The notes under the pieces: generated by a model
What the model was told of the DNA's origin: nothing
Database searches by the model: none
The model's input: only the letters and a program-made list of their open reading frames with translations
Made by a program: the position numbers and the translations under genes
NCBI GenBank assembly: GCA_026874595.1
Contig: CM049307.1
Span: forward strand, 57,581,870 to 57,645,869
DNA: 64,000 nt
Direction: 5' to 3'
Source: Sipunculus nudus
Taxonomy: Eukaryota > Annelida > Sipuncula > Golfingiida > Sipunculidae
Shown: piece by piece, positions 5,036 to 52,645 of the stretch
How positions within the stretch are numbered: position 1 is the stretch's first letter
Layout of the letters: each line of letters starts with the position of its first letter

Positions 5036-5655
5036 ATATACCGACTGTCTCGCACACATCACTCACACATATCTCATTGGGCATTTACACACAGTCATTC
5101 CAGACTTTCACTCGCACACTCGGAAAATGTTATCAATGCCTTATATGCCTCCATCTAAATGTCCCACAAAATCTTTAAATGTTGAAGCACATGAGCATTG
5201 TAATGTGTAGGTCGTGGTATGAAATTAGAGATATGAAAAACAGTTGAAAATAGGTTGTGTTTTCACACAATTTGGATATCGGATATTTCCACGAACACAG
5301 CCATTCCCATACAGTTTTACAATGTTCACATTTTTACCCACACACTGCTCAATGTGAGGATAGGAACATGTTATATAAATCTGTACTGGTATAGAAATTT
5401 GACAATTGATAAAAAGATAATGTTTTAACACACCCTTGATCTCTGGTACATCCACGAAAACATGAGGTCATCGGGGATTCAAACACTCATTATGCGACAT
5501 TCACACACTCATCATAAGTCATTTATACCTAAGCTCAGTATATTATATTTTATAGTCTAATGCAATGGGCAAAATGTGAATGTCCTATGCCCAGCGTGTG
5601 AAAGACATATGAGCAGTGTGTTAATATCCTATGATCAGTTAATATCCTATACGCT
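5036..5655. repeat. Degenerate 22-24 bp minisatellite that inverts
   Basis: Diverged units of the form CACACTCATNATANGTCATTC recur from about 5,050 to 5,530. From about 5,575 to 5,655 the same units appear in reverse complement (GAATGTCCTATGCCC, GACATATGAGCAGTGTG, ATCCTATGATCAGTTAA). The orientation switch lies near 5,540-5,575. The exact 755 bp duplicated block begins inside the inverted part, at 5,611. Confidence 0.5.
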
Positions 5656-6365
5656 CTTTTATATTGGAATAACGTGAAGAATACAAGAGTTTGACTCCAA
5701 GTAATGCAAACCTCTTTTTAGACCTGCGGCAGAGAGGGGTTTCATGGGGTCAACCCCAACCCAAGGTATAACAAAACACAACCTATTTTTTATTAGTAAT
5801 GAACTCGTATATTTCCAGAAAAAATAGGTCGTGGTCTCAAGGTCGTGTTTTGTCCTACATTTACAGCCATATTTCCATGGTAACCATTCTAATTTACAAG
5901 GTCAGAATAATTTTTAAATAAATTACCATAACTCTGTTGTTTTTACACATAGAAAAATGCAACCAGCACCAAAATGCGGGAAATAACATGGGGATTTTTA
6001 TATTGTACATCATGTATTCCTTATTTGTTTAATTTATGGTAATATATGTAAACATATGCAAATTTTTAATTTAAAATGCGCATTTTTTGTCATCTCAAAT
6101 AAAAAATGTTATAAAAATGGTAATCCTTCTTTGCTTAAATTTTCCTTTTGGGACAGGGGACATAAATTCTTCATAATTTATAACTACAGTTCAGTTATTT
6201 GGCCTGTATATACATGCAAATGTTTATGCAAATAGAGTTACCATAATATAAAATTTGTACATATAGTTATCACTGGAACTGTTTTTGCAGTTGTTAAATA
6301 ACCTGCAACTGTATCTGTTACGGTTGAGTGCTTTAATGATATTCATCAGGAAAGCTATTTTATGC
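5611..6365. repeat. 755 bp segment duplicated exactly at 8,744-9,498
   Basis: Every base I compared between 5,611-6,365 and 8,744-9,498 is identical, and the lengths are equal. This copy lies in continuous context: the inverted minisatellite precedes it and the rest of the ~2 kb repeat follows, so it is likely the source copy. Confidence 0.9.
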
Positions 6366-7665
6366 GTAAATAATTTGCAATAAATTGGATAGATAATGTT
6401 AATTATATTCTGAAGCTTATGGGGACATAAAGGTTTTATGAAGATGGCGATTACTGGGAGCAACGTGTGTAAAACCATGTCGTTCACCACTGTGTAGGAT
6501 TCCAGATCCAACCTATCATTTGCACACTCATGTCGAATTGTGTATACGCTTGTGCCATTCTTTGGAATTCACATATAAATTTTTGCAATCATAATTTTTT
6601 TTTTATAACTTTGGATCCTAATGTAACTATAAATAAAAATCGATGTTTGCATTTTTTCTTCCGCCATCATGAAAAAATGGCGGCCATATTAAAACCAGGG
6701 TTTTATATCACTCAAAAACCGACATTTTAGACACGGAAAGTCAAGAAAAATTCAAAATCCTTCATAGATAATTTTTCTTGATTGATTCTAGGGTAATTTT
6801 TCCTGTAAAATTAAATTCTGCTATCACTATTGTTGTACTTTACGTATTAACTTTAGATAATTTGCATAAATTTGCATATTTGACTGAATTGTGGAATTAA
6901 TACAATGAATATATATGTATTGATTATTTGGCTTTTTATGGAAAAAAATAAAGTATTTCAAGAACAAGCTATTCAAATATGATAAGATATAACGTATGTC
7001 TGTATAAATCATATTTTCCGAATTATAAAATGCAGATAAATTATGCAAATTAGAAAAATTGAGATTAAGGTAGTGGTCTTTTCATGAGAACATCATAAGG
7101 TAAATAGTTGCTTAATAATTAACTTATTAGCGGTCATATGTCCACTTATTGATTGTAAAAATGTAATAATTGTTTTTATTTTTAAAGCTAACATACATGT
7201 CACTTATTAACTTAGTTTCGTATATATGAACACGCATGTATTTTTCCGATGGGATTGGGACACTGATTGTATTGTTTATTAATTGAATGTAATTTATAAA
7301 CATATATTAAATGGATTAAATATTTGCTTACTTAGGTAATTTTTCTTTCCCTCTAGTTGACCAGTGAATAAAATATTAGCTAATTTGTAATGTATTGAGG
7401 ATATGAGAACATCATAACTTAAACAGTTCCTACTTATTTCACTTTACGGCTATTTCAATAGTTGTTTATTATTTCACTTGTCAGCCATAATAATGTGGTT
7501 CATTATAAACACTAATTTAAATATCTCTGTTATTTATTAACTAGTTTGCATATATAAATATATGCGCCGAATTTGGATAGCGACACTTATTGGAAAATTA
7601 AAAAGAAATGATGTTATTTTAGAGCATTTATTAAGTGTGATTAAATGGTTTGTCTGCTACCCAAT
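5705..7665 (+). repeat. ~2 kb interspersed repeat, copy 1
   Basis: Non-coding AT-rich repeat with marks such as GTCAACCCCAACCCAAGGTA, AAATAGGTCGTGG, ATGCAAACATCGAT (on the other strand) and TTTGCATAAATTTGCATA. A diverged copy lies in opposite orientation at 13,105-14,155. It has an internal hairpin (AACCTATTTTTTA against AAAAAATAGGT near 5,783-5,830). There is no open frame of note and its class is unknown. Confidence 0.7.
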
Positions 7666-7987
7666 TAGGTTGTCTAGTTAATAAATAATTTACTTATTTG
7701 CACATGCAGCCGCCGGTCAAATCATGATCAGTTGTAGGGTGTTTGGTGCAAAATAATTTATCGTTATTGATGCCAAGATGTGAGTGGCCAAGATTTAGCA
7801 TGTATTTTATAAATAAATTTGATGCACCAATTCAAGCGAATATTATTATAGGTGCAAAATAATACATCCATTTATTCTTGATGCAAACGTGTGCGAGGCC
7901 AAGATTTGACATGTACTTTATAAATAAAATAACTTGATACACCAAATTAGGGGAATATTTTAATTCATGCATAATAGCATAAATTAA
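7666..7987. other. No gene; AT-rich spacer
   Basis: Contains two loosely similar ~130 bp stretches (a GCAAAATAAT...GATGCA...TGCAGGCCAAGATTT-like pattern near 7,749-7,830 and 7,855-7,940), perhaps an old tandem duplication. Confidence 0.4.
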
Positions 7988-8640
7988 CTAGAATACGGGT
8001 AGTCGACAAGCGACTACGCGTATCCGCAGAAATCAGGGTGGGATGGGTGAAGTGAGGCATGGATTGAGTGGCAAGAGGAAATAGATTGAGATGTCTTGCA
8101 TACTAGCATGGATGTCTGCCACTAAAACATGATTGTAGGTGGCGCAACCTGTTAATTGAAAGAGAAAGCTATCCAAGATGTAAACGTATGCAACATTTCA
8201 GGTGGATAAGTGATACCACCGCTGAGATATGAGTGATTTTTACCCTAGGCAAATGAACAGATTGACACCATGCAAAAATGGTTGTTAAGCTGTAGAGCTA
8301 TTTAAGATCTATACTCATGCAAAATTTCAGGCCTATATGTCAAATCAGTCCTGAGACATTTGCATGGATGTCTGCAGCGTAAAGGTGAATGTAGGTGGCG
8401 CCTCCTGCCACAAAACCAATAAACTTTCGAAGGAATATACATATGCACATTTTCAGGTGGATAAGTCGAACCACTGCCAAGATATGGATGATTTTATCCC
8501 ACGGCAGACAAACAGAAGGACGCTGTGCAAAAATGGTTGAATGGGCGTATGATAAAGAGCTATGTTAGATCTAAACACATGCGAAATTTCAGACCGATAC
8601 GTCTTACCAATCTTGAGATATTAGCACGGATGTTTGCAGC

Positions 8641-8745
8641 ATAAACATAAATGAAGGTGGCCCGACCAGTTATTTTGTATGATATAAGTATATCCAAGCG
8701 CTACACTTGTACACAATTTCAGCCCGATCGGTCAAACGAGTCCGA
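8641..8745. repeat. 105 bp direct repeat flanking the inserted block (left)
   Basis: Identical to 9,501-9,605. It belongs to the Helitron-like core and runs into the duplicated 755 bp block instead of its normal continuation (AGATATGTG), which follows only the second copy. Confidence 0.9.
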
Positions 8746-9498
8746 GCAGTGTGTTAATATCCTATGATCAGTTAATATCCTATACGCTCTTTTATATTGG
8801 AATAACGTGAAGAATACAAGAGTTTGACTCCAAGTAATGCAAACCTCTTTTTAGACCTGCGGCAGAGAGGGGTTTCATGGGGTCAACCCCAACCCAAGGT
8901 ATAACAAAACACAACCTATTTTTTATTAGTAATGAACTCGTATATTTCCAGAAAAAATAGGTCGTGGTCTCAAGGTCGTGTTTTGTCCTACATTTACAGC
9001 CATATTTCCATGGTAACCATTCTAATTTACAAGGTCAGAATAATTTTTAAATAAATTACCATAACTCTGTTGTTTTTACACATAGAAAAATGCAACCAGC
9101 ACCAAAATGCGGGAAATAACATGGGGATTTTTATATTGTACATCATGTATTCCTTATTTGTTTAATTTATGGTAATATATGTAAACATATGCAAATTTTT
9201 AATTTAAAATGCGCATTTTTTGTCATCTCAAATAAAAAATGTTATAAAAATGGTAATCCTTCTTTGCTTAAATTTTCCTTTTGGGACAGGGGACATAAAT
9301 TCTTCATAATTTATAACTACAGTTCAGTTATTTGGCCTGTATATACATGCAAATGTTTATGCAAATAGAGTTACCATAATATAAAATTTGTACATATAGT
9401 TATCACTGGAACTGTTTTTGCAGTTGTTAAATAACCTGCAACTGTATCTGTTACGGTTGAGTGCTTTAATGATATTCATCAGGAAAGCTATTTTATGC
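8744..9498. repeat. 755 bp exact copy of 5,611-6,365
   Basis: Same orientation and length as the source block 3.1 kb away, with no difference seen. It lies between two identical 105 bp copies of the surrounding element. The left junction shares GA with the source; the right junction (TTTTATGC then ATATAAAC) has two bases not explained by either parent. Confidence 0.9.
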
Positions 9499-9500
9499 AT

Positions 9501-9605
9501 ATAAACATAAATGAAGGTGGCCCGACCAGTTATTTTGTATGATATAAGTATATCCAAGCGCTACACTTGTACACAATTTCAGCCCGATCGGTCAAACGAG
9601 TCCGA
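9501..9605. repeat. 105 bp direct repeat flanking the inserted block (right)
   Basis: Identical to 8,641-8,745. From here the Helitron-like sequence continues normally. Confidence 0.9.
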
Positions 9606-9800
9606 AGATATGTGTGTGAAGGCAGACGCACAGATAGACGCACTGCAGAGAGGAAATATCAGAGGTCAACGCAAAATATTTTGGCACCAGTTCACATGTG
9701 ACCCGATAATAGGGTCAAGTTTTCTGAAAAATCGGTCCAGTTGTCTCAGAGTTCAATTCCGGAATGGAACGCGGCGCGGCGGCGGAACCCGGTCAAGAAC

Positions 9801-11220
9801 ATAGTATCCTCAAAACTTTGTTTTGGCGAATACAATTAAATATGGAACAGAGAATGCAAACTTTATGCGTGTGATGCTTGGCTGATAGTTAATTAATATG
9901 TTATTCTTTCCAGTTGTATTGATATTTGCATGATATCGATTGGACATATTTTCATGGCTTAATTTTGCAATAAAATTAGCAAATATAACGAAAATGCTTG
10001 ATCCGTATCCAAGTAATAAGCCAATGTGGTCAAAGAAGATAACAATGTGAACCATCTGAGCAAGAACAGTAATAACTGTAATGGGTGCTGGATGTGGGTC
10101 ACTCTATTAGCATACAAATAACAAAACACGGTGTTTGAATTAACGTCATTGACAAGGGTGATAAGTGGTTACTGTAATTGACGTTTTAGTAATTACCGAC
10201 ACTTGATGATACATGTATATAGAATTATAATGGTGTCAGTGTTTTAGGATAAACAACAACTACATGCTTCTATTAGAGTCTATTAATGTTGACAGGCCAG
10301 GATATATGCTATGAAATTACACTTATTATACTCACGTGTAACAGAAATATAAACTTTCAGTTTACAGTTTGCAGCACACATTGTACCAATACATTTAATG
10401 TATACCCTACATGTCCTTCTTGGATTTCAACATACTGTATACGCTAGTGCATATGTTTTACGTCATATAAAAGTCCAAGGCCGCTTGCATTTATTATTTA
10501 CTGTTCCTCCACCTTGAAGAGTTTTATAATGGGAGTCTAGCCCCTTGCGATGAAAATAAAATATTACATATCATTTATATTGATCAATATAATAACAAAC
10601 TCATAAAAAATGTAATTTAAAGTACATTTTCATACTAGTAATGTAGACCTGATTGCAAATGTAATCATATTTTGTATCAGTCTGTGGCAAAATAAAATAT
10701 TCGTTTGATGAAGCTTATCGCGTAAATATTACTTATGGATAAATAAGTATACTTCATGATTAAAACTTTGACAAAATGGACATGTACTTGACCATTAATC
10801 CAGAACAGTTCATTTTCCACAGTTTAACTAGCTAAGGATGTTAAAAAATTCATATAGCACATTAAATATCAAGCATTAAGATAAGGATTTGAAATAGAGT
10901 AGAAAGGTCAGGGTAACGAAACAAGAACCAAGTCGTCTGAGGACAACAAAGCTAATCGGTACGGGGCATTCAGAAAATCCTTAACCTTTAACCCCAAAAT
11001 TACATGTGGGATTCCTAACCCCCATATACAATACATATGTATATGTTGTCCCTAAACTTTAACCTGAGCTGGGTTGGAATCAGTACAAATCTGTACAAAT
11101 GTGGTTTAATTACTGGCCGAGAAATTAAAATATGATAAAAACTGTTAATAGTTGTGCCAGGAATTGTCATTGTACATCAGTGTATTAAGTTTTACTTTCA
11201 AGCTATACGTCGGCCATAGG
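9801..11220. other. No gene recognised
   Basis: AT-rich, with scattered stops in all frames. The only structure noted is the palindrome-like GTCGTCTGAGGAC near 10,929, similar to the left end of the HINE at 58.1 kb. Confidence 0.5.
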
Positions 11221-12868
11221 GTATTATAAGAAGGCACTGAAGCGCGCCGATGTCTCCAAGTTGTAAGTGGACAAGAATGTCTCCCTCCTCAAAACTGACC
11301 TCAATAGGAAGCTAGCGGAGCTACACTTGACAAGTTAGATATCGAGAATGACTGGGCAGCGTTTAGAGATCTTGTCCAATCCACCTGACTGGATGTCCTT
11401 GGACCAACAACTGTGAGGCACAAGGACTGGTTTCATGAGAACGATAACAAGATACAAGGACTCCTCACAGAAAAACACAGGCTTCACCTTGTGTATCAAC
11501 AGGACCCCACCTCAATCTCAAAGAAAGCGGCCTTAACAAACATCCACCGCTTGGTCCAGACTAAACTACGCAGCATGCAAGATACCTGGCTAAGAGTCAA
11601 AACACTAGAGATCCAGAGATACGCGGATATGCATGGCTCTAAAAAATTCTATGATGATGCTCTCAAAGCTTCCGACATCCCAGTAGGCAACGGAGTAAAA
11701 ACAATCCTGCGTTCTATAGCTCTAAAACTGTTCAGCATGATGTTTGCTGCAATTCTAATGGCCGCTTTTAACAAGGACGATCTTGGAGTCGGTGTTAGAT
11801 ACCGCACAGATGGGAAGCTCCTCAATCCCAGAAGACTCTATGCTGTCACGAAAGTCAGGACAACCATTATCCGTGACCTGCTCTTTACTGACGATTGCGC
11901 CTTGAATGCATCTTCAGAATCAGACATGCAGCATAAAATGTACCAGTTTTTTCGTGCATGCGACAACTTTGGGCTTACCATAAAGAAGACAGGAAATGAT
12001 GCACCAACCAGCACAAGAAAAGCAATATAACGTACCTTCCATCATGGTGCATGGATCAAATCTGAAGATGGTGGGAAAAAAATCACGTATCGGGGGAGCA
12101 CATTGTCAAAACAACAAACATAATTGATGAGGTCAACATTAGAGTAGCAAAAGCCAGCATTTTGGGATCGCAGAACATCCATATTAAAACCAAGATCCAG
12201 GCTTAAAAGGCTGTAGTCATCACTACCCTGCTGTATGGCAACGAGACATGGAATATCTATGAAAGACATGCCAAATAACCGAACCACTTTCACCTGACCT
12301 GCCTTCGTCGACTGATGAATAATAGAAAGCAAGACAAAGTTCCAGATACTGAGGTCCTAAGATGTGACGACCTCCCATGGTCCATGCATCATCATGCATC
12401 TATGCCAGGTCCAATGGGCAGGTCACGTTTGCCGCATGCCAGATACAAGACTCCCAAAACAACTTTTGTATGGAGAACTTTAGTGTCTGGTAAAAGGTCC
12501 ATAGGAGGTCAGCGGAGGCGCTACAAGGAGAGTCTGAAAGCATCACTGAAAAAAAAACTATCCATCAATACAGATACATTGGAAAGTCTAGCGCAGGATC
12601 GAAAAGCATGGCATGCAGCTGCACACTTAGGTGCAGTAGACGATGAGATAGCACGACTAGCGGAGTCCAGGAGAAAACGTGAGCTCCGCAAGGCGAGGAT
12701 GGCAACTACCTCAACGGCAACCACCGATCATAAGTATCCAACATGTGGGAGGTTCTTCTGTGCCCAGATCGGCCTGACAAGTCATCTCCGGTGACACAAA
12801 GTTAGATCAACTACAAAACCTTGATAATCATATAGTCATCTTCGCAAAGCGATGGACGAACATTCAGC
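11221..12868 (+). pseudogene. Jockey/CR1-like LINE ORF2 relic
   Basis: Degraded non-LTR retrotransposon. In order: a linker before the RT (WAAFRDLVQST, VLGPTT, DWFHENDNKIQ, about 11,345-11,450), WLRVKTLEIQRYADMHGSKKFYDDALKASD, a late RT block with RYRTDGKL and FTDD (11,884-11,895; usual FADD), FGLTIKK, then after frame breaks the C-terminal region with DKVPDTEVL, HARYKTPK, GKRSIGGQRRRYKESLKASL, LAQDRKAWHAAAH and a decayed zinc-finger end CGRFFCAQIGLTSHLR. The ORF 11,413-12,030 looks continuous only because most of the RT (after KASDIP, about 11,685) is deleted. The 3' part GATAATCATATAGTCATCTTCG (about 12,820) is the family's usual UTR as I recall it. Stops and shifts occur throughout. The clade name is tentative. 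Confidence 0.85.
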
Positions 12869-13104
12869 TAATGATATATTCAGTGGTCTACTGGATGGTA
12901 AGACCAATTAAAACGCGGCACCTTGATAGCTTAGCATAGATAACCAAAGGGTGAGGTATTATATAATACGTTTCATAACCTCCACGAAACTCATGATTCG
13001 ATCCGTGGCTCATTACATATGCAAATGAGTTATATAATTATAACATGATAATTGTTTTTAGTCTTTGGAAGGGGAAGACTAATCTGTTATTATCAGGGGG
13101 AACA
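12869..13104. other. No feature recognised
   Basis: Short spacer between the LINE relic and the inverted copy of the ~2 kb repeat. Confidence 0.4.
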
Positions 13105-14155
13105 ATTACCCAAGTAAGTAGACAAACCATTTAATCACATTAGTATTCTTTCTATTAAAAGCCAAATAATCAAGATTTTTTGTTGTCTAATCAATTCTAT
13201 ATATTCATTCAAATATGCAAATTTATGCAAATTATCTAAAAAGATATGAACAGTACAACATTTTATTTTATAACAGAAATTGATACTACAGAAAAAATTA
13301 CCCTAGAATCAACCAAGAACAGTTTTCGGTTGAGGATTATCAAATTGTTTGCCTTAACCTTGTCTAAAATGACTGTTTTTGAATAATATATAACCCTGGT
13401 TTTAATATGGCCTCAATTTATCCAAGATGGCGGAAGAAAAATGCAAACATCGATTTTAAGTTATATTATGATCCAAAGTCATGATAAAGTATGTTTGCAA
13501 AAATCCACATGAAAATTCCACAGGAGCCAGCATTTAGACATAATTATATACACTACAAAGCATGCACAGAAACCAGTGTACTTAAAGTCTTGTTTATATG
13601 CACTAACATTTCTATTCTCACAGACTAACCCTAATTTGCATAAATTTGTGACTGTTTCATAACAATATACTCCATTAACCCTGGCATATTTGATATTAAT
13701 TTATTCCTCAGTAGCTGGTCTTTTCATCTGATCACATTTTGTGGCTCCTTTTCACTCATTTGCAAATCTACAGAAAATATAGGTGCATATATAGCAAATT
13801 TTAAAATAAAATTAGCATCTAATTAACATAATAAATATGCAAATTTCTTATTTTTTATAATATTTTTCTGTTTTCCAAATCTGTAAAGGAAATACTACAT
13901 TTTTGTGAAGACTGCAAGTGCCTATCGTTAATATTAATTAAGATATTAACAAACAAGTGAAATTAATTATTTTATCTAAAATTTGAGAGGTTGCCATGGA
14001 AACGGGTCAATAAATATGCCAAAGAACAATTTTCTGAAGCCACGACCTATTTTTTAAGAATGAGGGGATGACTACCTCTTTTAAGATGTAGGTCGTGTCT
14101 TGTTATACCTCCCGTTGGGGTTACACCTATTTCTAAGCCTCTTTTGGGAGGTTGG
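13105..14155 (-). repeat. ~2 kb interspersed repeat, copy 2 (inverted)
   Basis: Reverse complement of the family at 5,705-7,665. Shared marks are ACCCTGGTTTTAATATGGCC (about 13,395), AAATGCAAACATCGAT (about 13,438), CACGACCTATTTTTTA (about 14,041) and GGTATAACAAGACACGACCT on the minus strand. The arms are about 6.5 kb apart and diverged. This copy is shorter through internal deletions. Confidence 0.65.
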
Positions 14156-14875
14156 CCGCTAGTCTATTTACTCCCCATTAAAAAGTTTGCCCCAACTTAT
14201 AGCGTAGCCTACGTTTTTATGAAGCGTTCTACCGGTATACCGTAAAGGGGGCGTATCGGTGATCTGCCGAGTAAATGAAAAGCACGTGGTTAATGATTGG
14301 AGGATATTTTCAAATTTTCACCACGGATGACAATTGATCCAATGGCAATCATTCTCCATCACATAAATGTTAACATTATTCTGAATGTGGATTTATATGC
14401 TTAATATGGCAAAAAGTTATATTTATATCTTACAATGTAAAGATTCTTCTGGATCATTTCACATGAGTTCACAACCCTCCCTTGATAGTTTGCTTTTCAT
14501 AATATACATGAAATAAGTAGCCTATTTTAGGTTTTTTTAAATGTTTGTCTCCACTCATAAGACTAAAGGTCTTTACAAGCATGAGGAAATTTAAAGTGAT
14601 GTACTTTTGTAATTATTGTGAAAAAAAAACACATTGAAGTATTATTATAACAGCGGATTTTTTTTAAAGTCTTTTGTTCAACTAAACAAATTTCAAAACT
14701 GTGATCGTCTTCCAACCTCCAATCCATTTATTTCACCGGAGAGAGTCATCACAACTAGGGTGTACTTGAGCGTATCTTGCAACAACTGTTTACAAAGGGT
14801 GTAAAAGTGCTGTCCATCGGCATAAGTAAATCGCCATAAACCCAGGAAATGTGTAAAATTGATATATGTCGTACA
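14156..14875. other. No feature recognised
   Basis: No coding, RNA or clear repeat signal seen. Confidence 0.5.
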
Positions 14876-31600: not shown

Positions 31601-34245
31601 AGGTTACCTTTGACAGTCATCCGACAAGCGCAAAAGTTGCATAATTACGGCGACTCTCCAAAACAGCACGTGTATATAGTCTGCACCAATACCCGTGCCG
31701 ACCAGTGTTGGAATATTTTTTATATAAGAGAGACAGTAAAAAAGTTAAAGGCCAAAGGTTGCAGGAGCCGTTCCTCCGACTAGCTAGTGAATAATATGTA
31801 TTACCTGGTACGTTACTCGATCGTATGAGACAAATAATCCAAAATATGGCAAGACAGTTCACAATGACTGCAATATATTCAACACTGGAAAACAATCGAT
31901 ACAGCAATTCCAGTTAATGACGTCAGTTAATACGACGTCATATGTCATCGATTTGTGACGTTACTATTGTCTTGTAAACAGCTCTCGCACCCACAGGCAT
32001 AGAATACCTTCTATGTAGGTTCAAAGGGCGAAGCATATGGGCTGTGGTGGCTAGGCAGCATGATGAAATTGTCATGGTATCGGTTCATACAATGCAATGC
32101 ATGGAATCAAGTTGTTGACTGTAAATTAATGAAAGCCTCGATCACTTAATAAGCGCCAGCTGTCAGTCAGGTCAGAAAATGAGTCCACACTACTGCCATC
32201 TAACGGTACATATTCTAACTACATCAATCTATCTTGCTTGCTCTTCTTATTTATTTTAATAACCCGGGTTACAAAAGAGTAGTGAATAATTTTGTTTACT
32301 ATGGTTGTCCCTAACCATTATGTCAGGTGGCCTTTTCATTCAGGTGGCATAATCTCCTACATAATTTGCAGTATCAGTCAAATATGTTTTAATCTCTGGG
32401 AAATGAAGACACGCCGAATGCTTGTTTGGGACTTCTTGGAGCAATTATTTTAGGCTACCTTCACTGCATGCGGACCAGGATTGTGTAAAAATAAGAATAA
32501 AAAATCCTTGGTCTCGTTTGACTGTAGAAACAAAAATAAACTCTTGGATAGAATGTTTGAAATAAGAATTGATTTTGAAGTTGTACAAAAAAAAGGCACA
32601 GACTTCACGACTTTTGTAGATGCTATATAGGAAAAATAAATACGTATTCAGCATTAGACAAAACAGTATGTCACATACCGAGGCCTGTACTGTATCTAGC
32701 TGTCTGCCACCATGGTTTGAAACATAAACAGCATCAGCGCCGTGCTGTATAGCCAGTTCCGTATTATCTGCTGCCAGTATTCCTTTGACAACCACCGGCA
32801 GCCCTGATTCCTTCTTCAGCCACCAGATGTCGTCCCATGTCACTCGCGGATCGAAAACCTTGTCCAAGCTTAAAAACGGTATATTTGCACGATTCTGAAA
32901 ATATTATACAACATACATAACAAACACATTCTAATTCATGTAAATGAATATGAAAATAATCAAATGACGGATAAATGAGAATAAATCTGGATGACAACTT
33001 TCAATTTGGAAGATTTTTTATTTAAATTCAATAGGCATAAAGAGGTACGTTAGATCGAAATTAAATGGTTATGATTTAACAGATACCTAAACATTTCCAA
33101 ACATATTGAACTTATGCAAATATAGTTTGGTCTATATTGCTTTTGTTATTTGAAATGTGTACTCCTTTTATAGTTTTATTTGTGTGTGTAGTGTGTGCGT
33201 TTTTGCTGATTTACCGGTATCAGCATTGGTTGAATTAGGTGGGAGGGTAGCACCAAAGGATTTCGGGAAACTTCTCTCCGCTTGCTTGGAATGGGGGCGT
33301 CTGCAGTGAGTACGAGCGCCGTGAACCCCGCCTTCGCCGCCCGCCGCACGTTGTCCCTCGTTATTGCTCTGTCTGGATGGATGTAACTTGAAACCATTTT
33401 AGGCCACCAGGGGCCGCTGCCTGCACCACCTCAACTGATTGTGTTGCGCCAGTACTCATAACATAGCAGCTCCCGACACTGACTGCCGCTATTGTTAAAT
33501 ATAAAAATGGAATCAAATTGTTAGTTCTTCAACGTTCATAAAAATGTTTGCCGAGATTTGATTACAGCAGATGCTTTGAAAAGAATACGCCTTAATTAAC
33601 ATTTTAATTTAAGATCGCTTAGTTCAGGGTCATTCGATTGCGAACACACTTTGCTAATAAATTACTTATTTTTCGAAACCAAATTGTGGTTATTAGCTTA
33701 AGCGCGATATGCTAAGAACTTCAACTGTTTACACTATCACATATCCAGATGGCGCAAAGGGATTCTTGTTGACATGCAACAAAGAAAATTGTACGTATAT
33801 TTATTCTAATCACGTTTGCTATTTTGAAGCAAACCTAAAGTTACATAACAAATGGAAAAAAATAGTACTCAGCATTTTAAGTTTGCTTAACATGGAAGGG
33901 TATCAACGGTAGCTTACGGTGTCTCGTATAGGACACACAGAATTTTATTTTTTATCTCGTTCCCACGAGATAGTATCTCGTTCCCACGAGATAATTATCC
34001 TGTTCGTACGCGATAGCATCTCGTTGCCGCGCGACAGTATCTCCTTGCCATGATAGCTATAGCCCTCATGCGGACAAGAATGTGTGTTGTCTGTTATATG
34101 GCTGAGCCTTAATGCAACTTAAATTGTAAATATATATTTTGTATATCCTTTCACGCCGAATTCTCTGAAGTCAATTTAACCGCGGCTTTCATTGCGTTGG
34201 TTCTAGGTTCATCTGGATATATATAAATATGTAAATACATATAAA

Positions 34246-39000: not shown

Positions 39001-40261
39001 CAATATAAATTCTGGGCCGGCCTTTAGGTTGACCTTTTTATGCTAATGAACATACACATCCCTGTGTTTCTATAGACATCTTCATTACTGGGTCTAGTGT
39101 TTATGATATTTGAATTTTCATCTCCATTCAAGATGAAGTCTTGGCGTGACCTCTCGTTCCAAGATGGCAGATTTCATACCTTGTGGTTGTTAGTAGGTAG
39201 ACGGGATAAGTTATAGAAGTGAAATAGATTGAAATTCAAAATAACGTGTTTTTTAGCGGGACTCGATGGTTTATTTAAGGTGTGAAACCTCTCAAAACTA
39301 GGATAAAGGAGTTAGTTATTGATAATCTGATATAAAGTCCGGTGTAGGCCTATTTCTCTCTAATTGTCGCCCAGGCCAATATTTGTTAACATTGTGTCAA
39401 GCGCCTGTGACACAGGGTTTCAGGTTCGAGACCCAGTGAAGTGCTTCACAAATGCATGATGTTATGTGTACTTATATATTTGACTCTTTCACTCATTACA
39501 AGTTCGCCAACAGACACAGATGCAGAAGACATACATACGAATAGCCGCCGACGGCGACGCAACAGGTTTCAAGTTTCTGTTGCGTCGCCGGCCCACCAAA
39601 GGGCTATCTGGGGTTAAAGCACGATACGATCTGTTACTCTAAGAAAGGAAATTGAATAAAAATATTTCCTATGGTTTTAATAAACCAATGTTCACATAAT
39701 GTTGTATGTCGAAAGGCCTGTAATAAGAAATAACCATTGTGGAAAGCATGAAGCACCTGTAACATCAACAACTGATATTATATGTCCAGAGAGAATTGAA
39801 GCATTAACAGCCCCGGTAGACATATTGTATTTGGTGGCAGTCCTGTATAAGGCTTTAGGCCTGTGTACTATTATGTTCATATTTTAACTTCCTTGGTGCA
39901 AAATAGGGCTGAGAACAGAACAGTAATGTTCTCTAGTGGTTAATATACAATACACATAGATGTACTGAACATTAATCAATGGATATATGTTAAATCTCAC
40001 AGTTGTGTATGAAGTGCTATAATCACAGTTAACTGCAGGTGCAATCTATGGACTCCACATTGCGTCAGTCACTGAAAAAAAGCAATTGAGGAGTTCATTG
40101 TTATTGGCTAACATCCGAATAAGAACACCATATCCACGTAGACTAGACACTGATACTTTTTACATCCTGAACCAACTCGCTCCGACGCCTCAGTTCGTGC
40201 GTGAGGTTTTTGACAATCGCTCTAAACTAAATACGTATCCAGCAGTAGAAAAAAAGAAAGT
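39001..40261. other. Spacer within the duplicated segment; no gene
   Basis: A tRNA-like B box (GGTTTCAGGTTCGAGACCC, about 39,416) suggests a SINE piece. An inverted pair AACAGGTTTCAAG / AAGTTTCTGTTGCGTCG surrounds GCCGACGGCGACGCAAC near 39,545-39,590. Confidence 0.35.
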
Positions 40262-40365
40262 CACATACCGAAGCCTGTACCGTATCTAGCTGCCTGCCGC
40301 CGTGGGTAGACACATAAACAGCATAAACGCCGTGCTGTGCTGCAAGTTTAGTATCCAGGCTGGCC
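40262..40365 (-). pseudogene. Orphan partial copy of HAO coding exon 4
   Basis: Minus-strand DTKLAAQHGVYAVYVS then [13 protein letters not shown] with the donor GTATGTG kept. Compared with the gene's exon, the upstream half (including the catalytic Lys) is absent and Asn of SNHGGRQLD is Thr. No other HAO exon follows or precedes it in the window, so it is a duplicated fragment. Confidence 0.8.
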
Positions 40366-51422: not shown

Positions 51423-52499
51423 TTACCGAATCCGGATACAGTGAGCATGAAGTAGTTCCTTGACCTGAGAACGAAATCTTTCGTTCATGAGCCAGTAAAC
51501 AAAGGGGTTACATATATTGTTTATATAATGAGAGTAAACAATAATGGAGTTGACTTTGGTGACCCGGAAGGAGATCGCCCAAGGAGCATAGCTTATGATG
51601 AACAAAGCCGAAATGACGCAAAACATGTTGGCAGTCATTCTTACGTGTTTCCGTTTCCTCTCCGCGATGGAATTGTTATAAGACTGGATTCCTCCGACGC
51701 CATGCTGAGTGACACTACCTTGTATTCTGTCGTTCCTCTTTGCTGAACTGCTGCATGATGGGATGGCATTTGAACCAACTGCAGCATCAGTGGTACCTGG
51801 GGTCCGGATAACGTGGTCTGAATCTTTTGGTAATTGCAGGTGGGTTGTTTTTGAGCTTCCTGACGTCGACCGACCCTGAGTAGTCGGTTGGTTGGAGCTC
51901 CGACCAGGAACTGGGGCAACGTGGATCACGTTCGTCCTTTGAGCGTAAAGCTTCTTGAAAATTAATATGTACATAACTGTTATGGCTAGTATAGTTATAA
52001 CCATATAAACCGACAATAGGTAGACTTGTATGCCTCTCATTTTCAAGAAGATAAACGTTTCAAGAAAAACGATGAGGCAGGTGGACACGCCAGCAGTAAC
52101 TCTGACTAAAGTTCGGTTCCGACGGGCTTCATTGTAGGCAAATGGCTCGTGCACGGCGTAATAACGGTCAATACTCAATGCTAATAATATCGTCAACGAG
52201 ATTATAATGGTAGCGGCGTTGACGCATATGAATAAAACTACCAGTCCGTTAGGCAAGACTCCATACCCATGAGGTGGGCCCAAAGGCATGGACGTAAGCG
52301 TAGCCGTCAGGTCGGTGGCCGCTAAAGCAATAGTTAACACATTCGCTGCCAGTCTCTTCTTTATTCTGAAGTAAACTACTATAACTATGATGTTTCCTAT
52401 TACACCGATGATGATGAAGACGATGATGATGACAATAAAAGCCACTGTCTCATTCCATGACATCGGAAGTAGCAGTCTTTCTGTACGATTTTCTGCCAT
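51423..52499 (-). CDS. Rhodopsin-like (class A) orphan GPCR
   Basis: 358 residues, seven membrane spans at about 18-43, 53-72, 85-110, 132-152, 158-183, 289-311 and 316-336. Class A marks: GN (35-36, N1.50), LAATD (D63, 2.50), DRY (111-113), APW after TM6 start, and NPFVY (331-335, NPxxY). N-glycosylation sites NRT (4) and NET (16) are in the extracellular N terminus. Unusual: no Cys at 3.25 (Val87), a very short second extracellular loop (about 7 residues, no Cys), Tyr instead of Trp at 6.48, and a ~100-residue Ser/Thr-rich third intracellular loop. The missing disulfide and short ECL2 recall the melanocortin/cannabinoid/adenosine-like group, but no ligand can be named. Start: an acceptor TTCGTTTTAG at 52,522 lies just upstream, and in the spliced frame the exon before has a stop, so the upstream Met at 52,598 is rejected. 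Confidence 0.88.
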   Translation of the reverse strand: MAENRTERLLLPMSWNETVAFIVIIIVFIIIGVIGNIIVIVVYFRIKKRLAANVLTIALAATDLTATLTSMPLGPPHGYGVLPNGLVVLFICVNAATIIISLTILLALSIDRYYAVHEPFAYNEARRNRTLVRVTAGVSTCLIVFLETFIFLKMRGIQVYLLSVYMVITILAITVMYILIFKKLYAQRTNVIHVAPVPGRSSNQPTTQGRSTSGSSKTTHLQLPKDSDHVIRTPGTTDAAVGSNAIPSCSSSAKRNDRIQGSVTQHGVGGIQSYNNSIAERKRKHVRMTANMFCVISALFIISYAPWAISFRVTKVNSIIVYSHYINNICNPFVYWLMNERFRSQVKELLHAHCIRIR

Positions 52500-52645
52500 T
52501 GCCTTTCTGCACTCGGTGGTACTAAAACGAAACAATCGACATAAAATGTAACACGATACACTCCAATTGAAAGCCCCTTTAGCTAAGGGGTAGAGCAACG
52601 GAATGAAAGACGAAACTTCAGCACCCCCCCCCCCCCATCTCTAAC

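Follow-up and report, generated by a model that had tools for sequence, protein, structure and literature searches.

In rice, patch-mediated insertions that form tandem duplications were reportedly attributed to break repair by Vaughn and Bennetzen in 2014, and the mechanism is said to start from nicks. For human PLP1, the excerpted text of PMC6902434 describes directly oriented duplicated blocks around a normal-copy block (DUP-NML-DUP), a layout with two junctions that join the end of block 1 to the start of block 2 and the end of block 2 to the start of block 1. According to the same text, these junctions carry microhomology or a few inserted bases, with a 3-bp insertion in one case. Judged by titles and abstract openings, almost all of the papers listed on this layout deal with human disease or with methods. 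In transposons, passages of PMC8277862 report that single-copy Pack-TIRs show a cis bias and a median microhomology of 2 bp, that microhomology exceeds chance in 84.4% of the human Pack-TIR breakpoints tested, and that the DNA they capture occupies a small gap (a median of 4.6% of the element).

Here we describe a pair of direct repeats inside a transposon of Sipunculus nudus, found in a 64-kb stretch of DNA that was analysed as a whole (the window). A recent local replication/repair error inside a TIR transposon copy, with two template switches, is the probable source of these repeats, and its product would be a miniature, directly oriented DUP-NML-DUP.

The repeats and their host transposon

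The window occupies 57581870-57645869 of contig C2 in an assembly that comprises 1,426,538,692 bases (1.43 Gb) in 153 contigs. We found that bases 5611-6365 equal 8744-9498 at 755 of 755 positions, an exact match that cannot be extended, and that 8641-8745 equal 9501-9605 at 105 of 105. An earlier, sequence-only reading had claimed both an exact 755-bp copy and identical 105-bp repeats on either side of it, and both are there as claimed; chance is no explanation for repeats of such length. The 2-base homology claimed at one junction is likewise present, as the GA at 8744-8745 that is common to both repeats. At the other junction, AT (9499-9500) sits between the 755-bp copy and the second 105-bp block. 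In the BLAST view, the long repeat covers 758 bp and has a single mismatch, A at 9499 for G at 6366, in a GCG/GCA context, so that what had been called two extra bases is also readable as donor 6366-6367 with one G-to-A change. Read in this way, the second junction may have no added bases, only a 1-bp overlap and a CpG-type change that came later. Among 19 aligned relatives, 4 (L011, L013, L014 and L024) have A at the site equivalent to donor 6366. The features are as follows.

5611..6365, + strand: donor (parental) segment, 108 bp of flank plus 647 bp of transposon left end
5611..5718, + strand: host DNA left of the transposon, copied into the insert; a place-specific flank by copy comparison
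5716..5718, no strand: left 3-bp target duplication TTT, equal to 14167-14169
5719..14166, + strand: host TIR DNA transposon copy of 8448 bp, 860 bp of which were gained; ends TAGACCTGCGGC / GCCGCTAGTCTA; collinear genome copies
6366..8640, + strand: skipped normal-copy segment, 2275 bp, collinear with L009, L010, L013 and L016
8641..8745, + strand: 105-bp block, first copy; present once in the alignments of empty relatives
8744..8745, + strand: junction 1 (8745 to 5611), 2-bp microhomology GA
8744..9498, + strand: second copy of 5611-6365, with a second transposon left end TAGACC... at 8852
9499..9500, + strand: junction 2 (6365 to 8641), AT; two added bases, or donor 6366-6367 with one G-to-A
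9501..9605, + strand: 105-bp block, second copy, 105/105 identity
14167..14169, no strand: right 3-bp target duplication TTT, equal to 5716-5718

The stretch 5719-14166 is one TIR DNA transposon with a 3-bp target duplication. Its termini (left TAGACCTGCGGC, right GCCGCTAGTCTA) form 12-bp imperfect TIRs, and its inverted arms span ~1.2 kb: the left arm, 5746-6961, aligns inverted with 14127-13130 at a score of 450, where the best of 50 shuffles reached 85. The 3-bp flanks match each other in the window (TTT), as they do in 6 of the 7 copies with both ends found, L012 being the one that disagrees. Helitrons are not known to have terminal inverted repeats or a target duplication. The earlier assignment of the host as Helitron-like is thus ruled out by the TIRs, the inverted arms and the target duplication, and the stretch at 13.1-14.2 kb, which had been compared as a strongly diverged relative, belongs to this same element as its right inverted arm. 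Genome copies follow the same outline. L009 and L010, the two most complete relatives (7926 and 7936 bp, or 7.9 kb), are collinear with the window from 5719 to 14166-14167 with a single break at 13144/13145; L012, L016, L019 and L021 align in several pieces that together run from about 5714-5719 to about 14157-14170, and the alignment of L013 to the window ends at 11392.

Several other features of the element and the window were recorded. The window copy lacks ~330 bp at 13144/13145, where L009, L010, L012, L016 and L021 have 324-348 bp, and the deletion junction 13144-13145 shares TA. Since the missing block is partly an inverted relative of 6932-7137, it is the inner right arm that was deleted. 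Diverged tandem units of ~256 bp (~72% alike) occupy 8094-8745 and 9501-9653; they belong to the transposon in relatives too, and in L019 the array is expanded. At L020:2164-3276, a long array of ~80-bp units lies just past the aligned part of the transposon copy. Open frames at 11389-12794 (+), in a stretch common to other transposon copies, gave us the impression of a LINE-type reverse transcriptase with a terminal zinc finger; neither of the ORFs at 11389-12027 and 12279-12791 matched Pfam, even at E values up to 10. Elsewhere in the window, 51426-52640 (-) is a single 405-aa open frame with a rhodopsin-type receptor family match (7tm_1, E 2.7e-16), and the open frame 32448-32903 (-) matches part of an FMN-dependent dehydrogenase (PF01070, E 2.5e-23). 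Bases 32633-32764 recur at 40224-40354 with 82.6% identity, perhaps as a second exon copy.

Donor, empty sites and age

We used copies of the transposon elsewhere in the genome to identify the donor and the state of the acceptor site. The genome match list held 46 rows, two of them the window's own, with 40 of 1235 candidates scored. From the 44 non-own rows we compared 20 loci, with 7 extensions; the 20 are the best non-own matches listed, minus the partial C2:95817913. L017 and L018 have a common left flank and do not count as independent copies. Both lie on contig C2, ~167 kb apart, and their nearly identical left flanks suggest a duplicated chromosome stretch. The match list omitted the 105-bp block in relatives that carry it and is no measure of the rarity of that block.

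The insert consists of 108 bp of the locus's own left flank followed by the first 647 bp of the element. Of the 44 non-own matches listed (40 of 1235 candidates scored), none begins to the left of query 205, which corresponds to donor 5712; matching in 20 of 20 fetched copies likewise begins at donor 5712 or beyond. Among 35 loci, the 108-bp flank was found only in L001 and L002, both of which are the window's own place. At the other end of the donor, 19 of 20 copies align through 6365/6366, and L023 is broken there. A copied host flank, together with a family that runs on past 6365/6366, shows that 5611-6365 is the donor and that the copy was made here after the transposon had landed. The assembly thus gives the donor and the recipient, the direction of copying and its origin in place.

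At the acceptor (8745/9606), a copy was scored as spanning if its match started before position 250 and ended after position 340 of the joined query. Six of 20 copies span, at sites that are paralogous, not allelic, and all six are without the insert. Four of these are clean empty sites, aligned over the entire 591-base query or all but one base (L009, L010, L013, L016), and two are partial (L019 and L021); the L019 match is weak (72%) and falls within a displaced tandem array. The other 14 copies fall below the cut-off and were counted neither as empty nor as filled, including L024, whose shorter match crosses the acceptor without an insert. Compared with the empty relatives, the window copy has lost no element sequence at the acceptor and has 105 bp duplicated instead. 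Judged on the six spanning relatives, the 860 extra bases appear private to the window copy. This genome-copy test supersedes an earlier one on the window's own tandem units, in which the joined flanks scored 110 and 100, against 86/85 and 75/60 for the filled sides.

How old is the insert? Private substitutions were counted at 6 of 647 sites in 5719-6365 (against 10 copies) and at 4 sites in 8641-8745 (against 4 copies), and because the duplicates are identical, all ten are present in both. The duplicates themselves show 0 differences in 860 bp; counting 9499 gives 1 in 863. Ten private substitutions in both duplicates, with no difference between them, make the event recent, and its relative youth can be read from the assembly; on these substitution counts we judge it young relative to the copy's own divergence, with the qualification that some 'private' changes, found against a sample of copies, may predate the insertion of the transposon.

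Probable template switching and its alternatives

What kind of event left these repeats? Both duplicated blocks (755 bp and 105 bp) retain parental order and orientation, so that the sequence reads as normal to 8745, back to 5611, on to 6365/6368 and forward to 8641. In left-to-right copying, the new strand would leave its template at 8745 and re-prime 3,135 bases upstream at 5611, using a 2-bp match (GA) in the host DNA that borders the transposon. It would then copy 755-758 bases, to 6365 (or 6368), leave again and resume at 8641, skipping 2,275 bases, with normal copying afterwards. None of the transposon ends coincides with any junction. Both junctions are contained in the assembly. We infer that two template switches took place in a single event (FoSTeS/MMBIR, or the filling of a gap after a transposon break), not a tandem duplication followed by a separate deletion; this is the simplest account. 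The sequence-only reading had also proposed template switching with a return 105 bases upstream. That part remains the best reading and gains support from the empty sites of 6 relatives, the copied flank and the private substitutions in both duplicates; its Helitron host is not. The same reading had judged 105 bases to exceed by far any target duplication of known transposases. Most simply, these bases are the tail of a tandem duplication with a skipped middle, a known layout, and need not be a target duplication.

Two observations weigh against the two-switch event. First, the observed microhomology is no better than that of random junctions, at least 2 bp being found in 17.7% of these and at least 1 bp in 46%, and we do not count it as proof of a template switch. 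Second, secondary structure as a trigger was tested at the donor start and rejected: the weakly palindromic stretch 5429-5693 folds no better than its shuffles (z 0.49), and no special DNA structure was seen there. Moreover, a tandem duplication plus a deletion, or a staggered break with templated filler, would leave the same letters.

In the first of these routes, a tandem duplication of 5611-8745 (3,135 bp, GA junction) would be followed by a 2,275-bp deletion (6366-8640) in the second copy. Two ordinary events then yield the observed sequence, AT excepted, the deletion points have GC in common before the break, and deletions do occur in the transposon family, such as the ~330 bp missing at 13144/13145. 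However, two independent events would have had to strike the same place before a single base in 860 bp had changed, and we consider this route unlikely. The second route is patch-mediated repair of a break made by opposite-strand nicks 105 bases apart, with both overhangs filled in and filler taken from 3 kb away. Its sequence product would be identical to the observed one, and in mouse ES cells, according to the excerpted text of PMC8355091, tandem duplications arise from paired nicks, yet a stagger of 105 nt exceeds the 43- and 50-nt overhangs given in that text. Nor does patch repair explain why the filler should come from upstream, keep its orientation and be collinear with the tail; we hold it to be distinctly unlikely.

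Could the repeats have been made by the assembly, through a chimeric read, a mis-joined haplotype (an allele without 6366-8640 placed in tandem) or a false duplication? The layout is what would result if a second haplotype, carrying a simple deletion, had been placed after the first, and passages of PMC9516828 put false duplications at 4 to 16% of the sequence in the older assemblies studied there. The marks of false duplication named in these passages are gaps, half depth and, if two haplotypes are the source, one-copy k-mers. The 64-kb window has no gap (0 N), the contigs are chromosome-sized (61-111 Mb among those seen; 153 in all), and the two copies are without differences, whereas haplotype duplicates are expected to differ. 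In addition, an overlap assembler should hardly be able to make joins on 2 and 0-1 matching bases unless a real read spans them. On these features of the sequence an artefact seems an unlikely source of the repeats, and we give it only a slim chance. Finally, the idea that a mobile 755-bp unit transposed and left an unusually long target duplication can be dismissed almost outright, despite the first-sight appearance of an insert between direct repeats and the dispersed relatives of its inner part. An insert made of the locus's own left flank and the element start was not made by transposition of a unit, and neither of its ends is a family boundary: one is 108 bp of host flank, and the family runs on past the other (6365) in 19 of 20 relatives. 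Among the 44 non-own matches listed (40 of 1235 candidates scored), none starts before query 205, and the one that extends furthest ends at query 863, no more than 3 bases inside the right-hand 105-bp block.

A nested element and comparison with known systems

The copied piece carries a left terminus (8852) with TTT in front of it, and junction 2 joins this piece to 8641. As a result, 8852-14166 (5,315 bp) has both termini and the same 3-bp flanks, with an internal deletion of 6366-8640 relative to the parent. It is conceivable, if rather doubtful, that the scar created a nested shorter transposon in one step and that template switching gives birth to internally deleted derivatives inside their parent, without excision. 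If true, such nested pairs would be the missing intermediates. Among the matches listed (40 of 1235 candidates scored), no other place runs through junction 2, and there was no sign of the nested element moving.

The preferred two-switch reading makes this locus a further example of apparent template switching inside a TIR transposon, one that leaves a second left terminus, and we claim no priority for it. It is a known kind of DNA copying error, and the understanding of the mechanism is unchanged. The scar is unusually clean, with the parent, the copy, empty relatives and both junctions reachable at base resolution, and it illustrates that an insert may be flanked by long direct repeats without these being target duplications.

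How does the locus compare with the systems described? Rice patch-mediated insertions, as reportedly described by Vaughn and Bennetzen in 2014, are likewise insertions with tandem duplication, but in a plant. The directly oriented DUP-NML-DUP of PLP1 (FoSTeS/MMBIR), as given in the excerpted text of PMC6902434, has the same two junctions, which here stand in cis in the assembly: 5611-6365 and 8641-8745 are duplicated and direct, and 6366-8640 is single. Compared with these clinical cases, the blocks here are far smaller (755 bp and 105 bp on either side of a 2,275-bp gap), and the case lies inside an animal transposon and is known from an assembly, not from a pedigree. In the cycles of templated insertion of PCAWG, to judge from passages of PMC7025897, a copied template also returns and re-replicates a stretch (here 105 bp), leaving two junctions; those cycles belong to somatic human cancers, and their templates typically come from different chromosomes.

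The likeness to single-copy Pack-TIRs, as they appear in passages of PMC8277862, is that a TIR transposon has gained, internally and after its insertion, non-transposon DNA from within 5 kb, with 2-bp microhomology at one break. The element has TIRs and a target duplication, and the duplicated non-transposon DNA, the 108-bp flank copy, has a known parent. Unlike most of the human Pack-TIRs tested in that paper, the window case has microhomology no better than chance. Also unlike Pack-TIRs as described there, 647 of the 755 bp are the element's own left end, so that host DNA contributes only 108 bp, and instead of a small gap the element sequence is intact at the site, with 105 bp of it duplicated around the insert. 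By analogy, then, the window case would work like a Pack-TIR, and we do not file it as a standard one.
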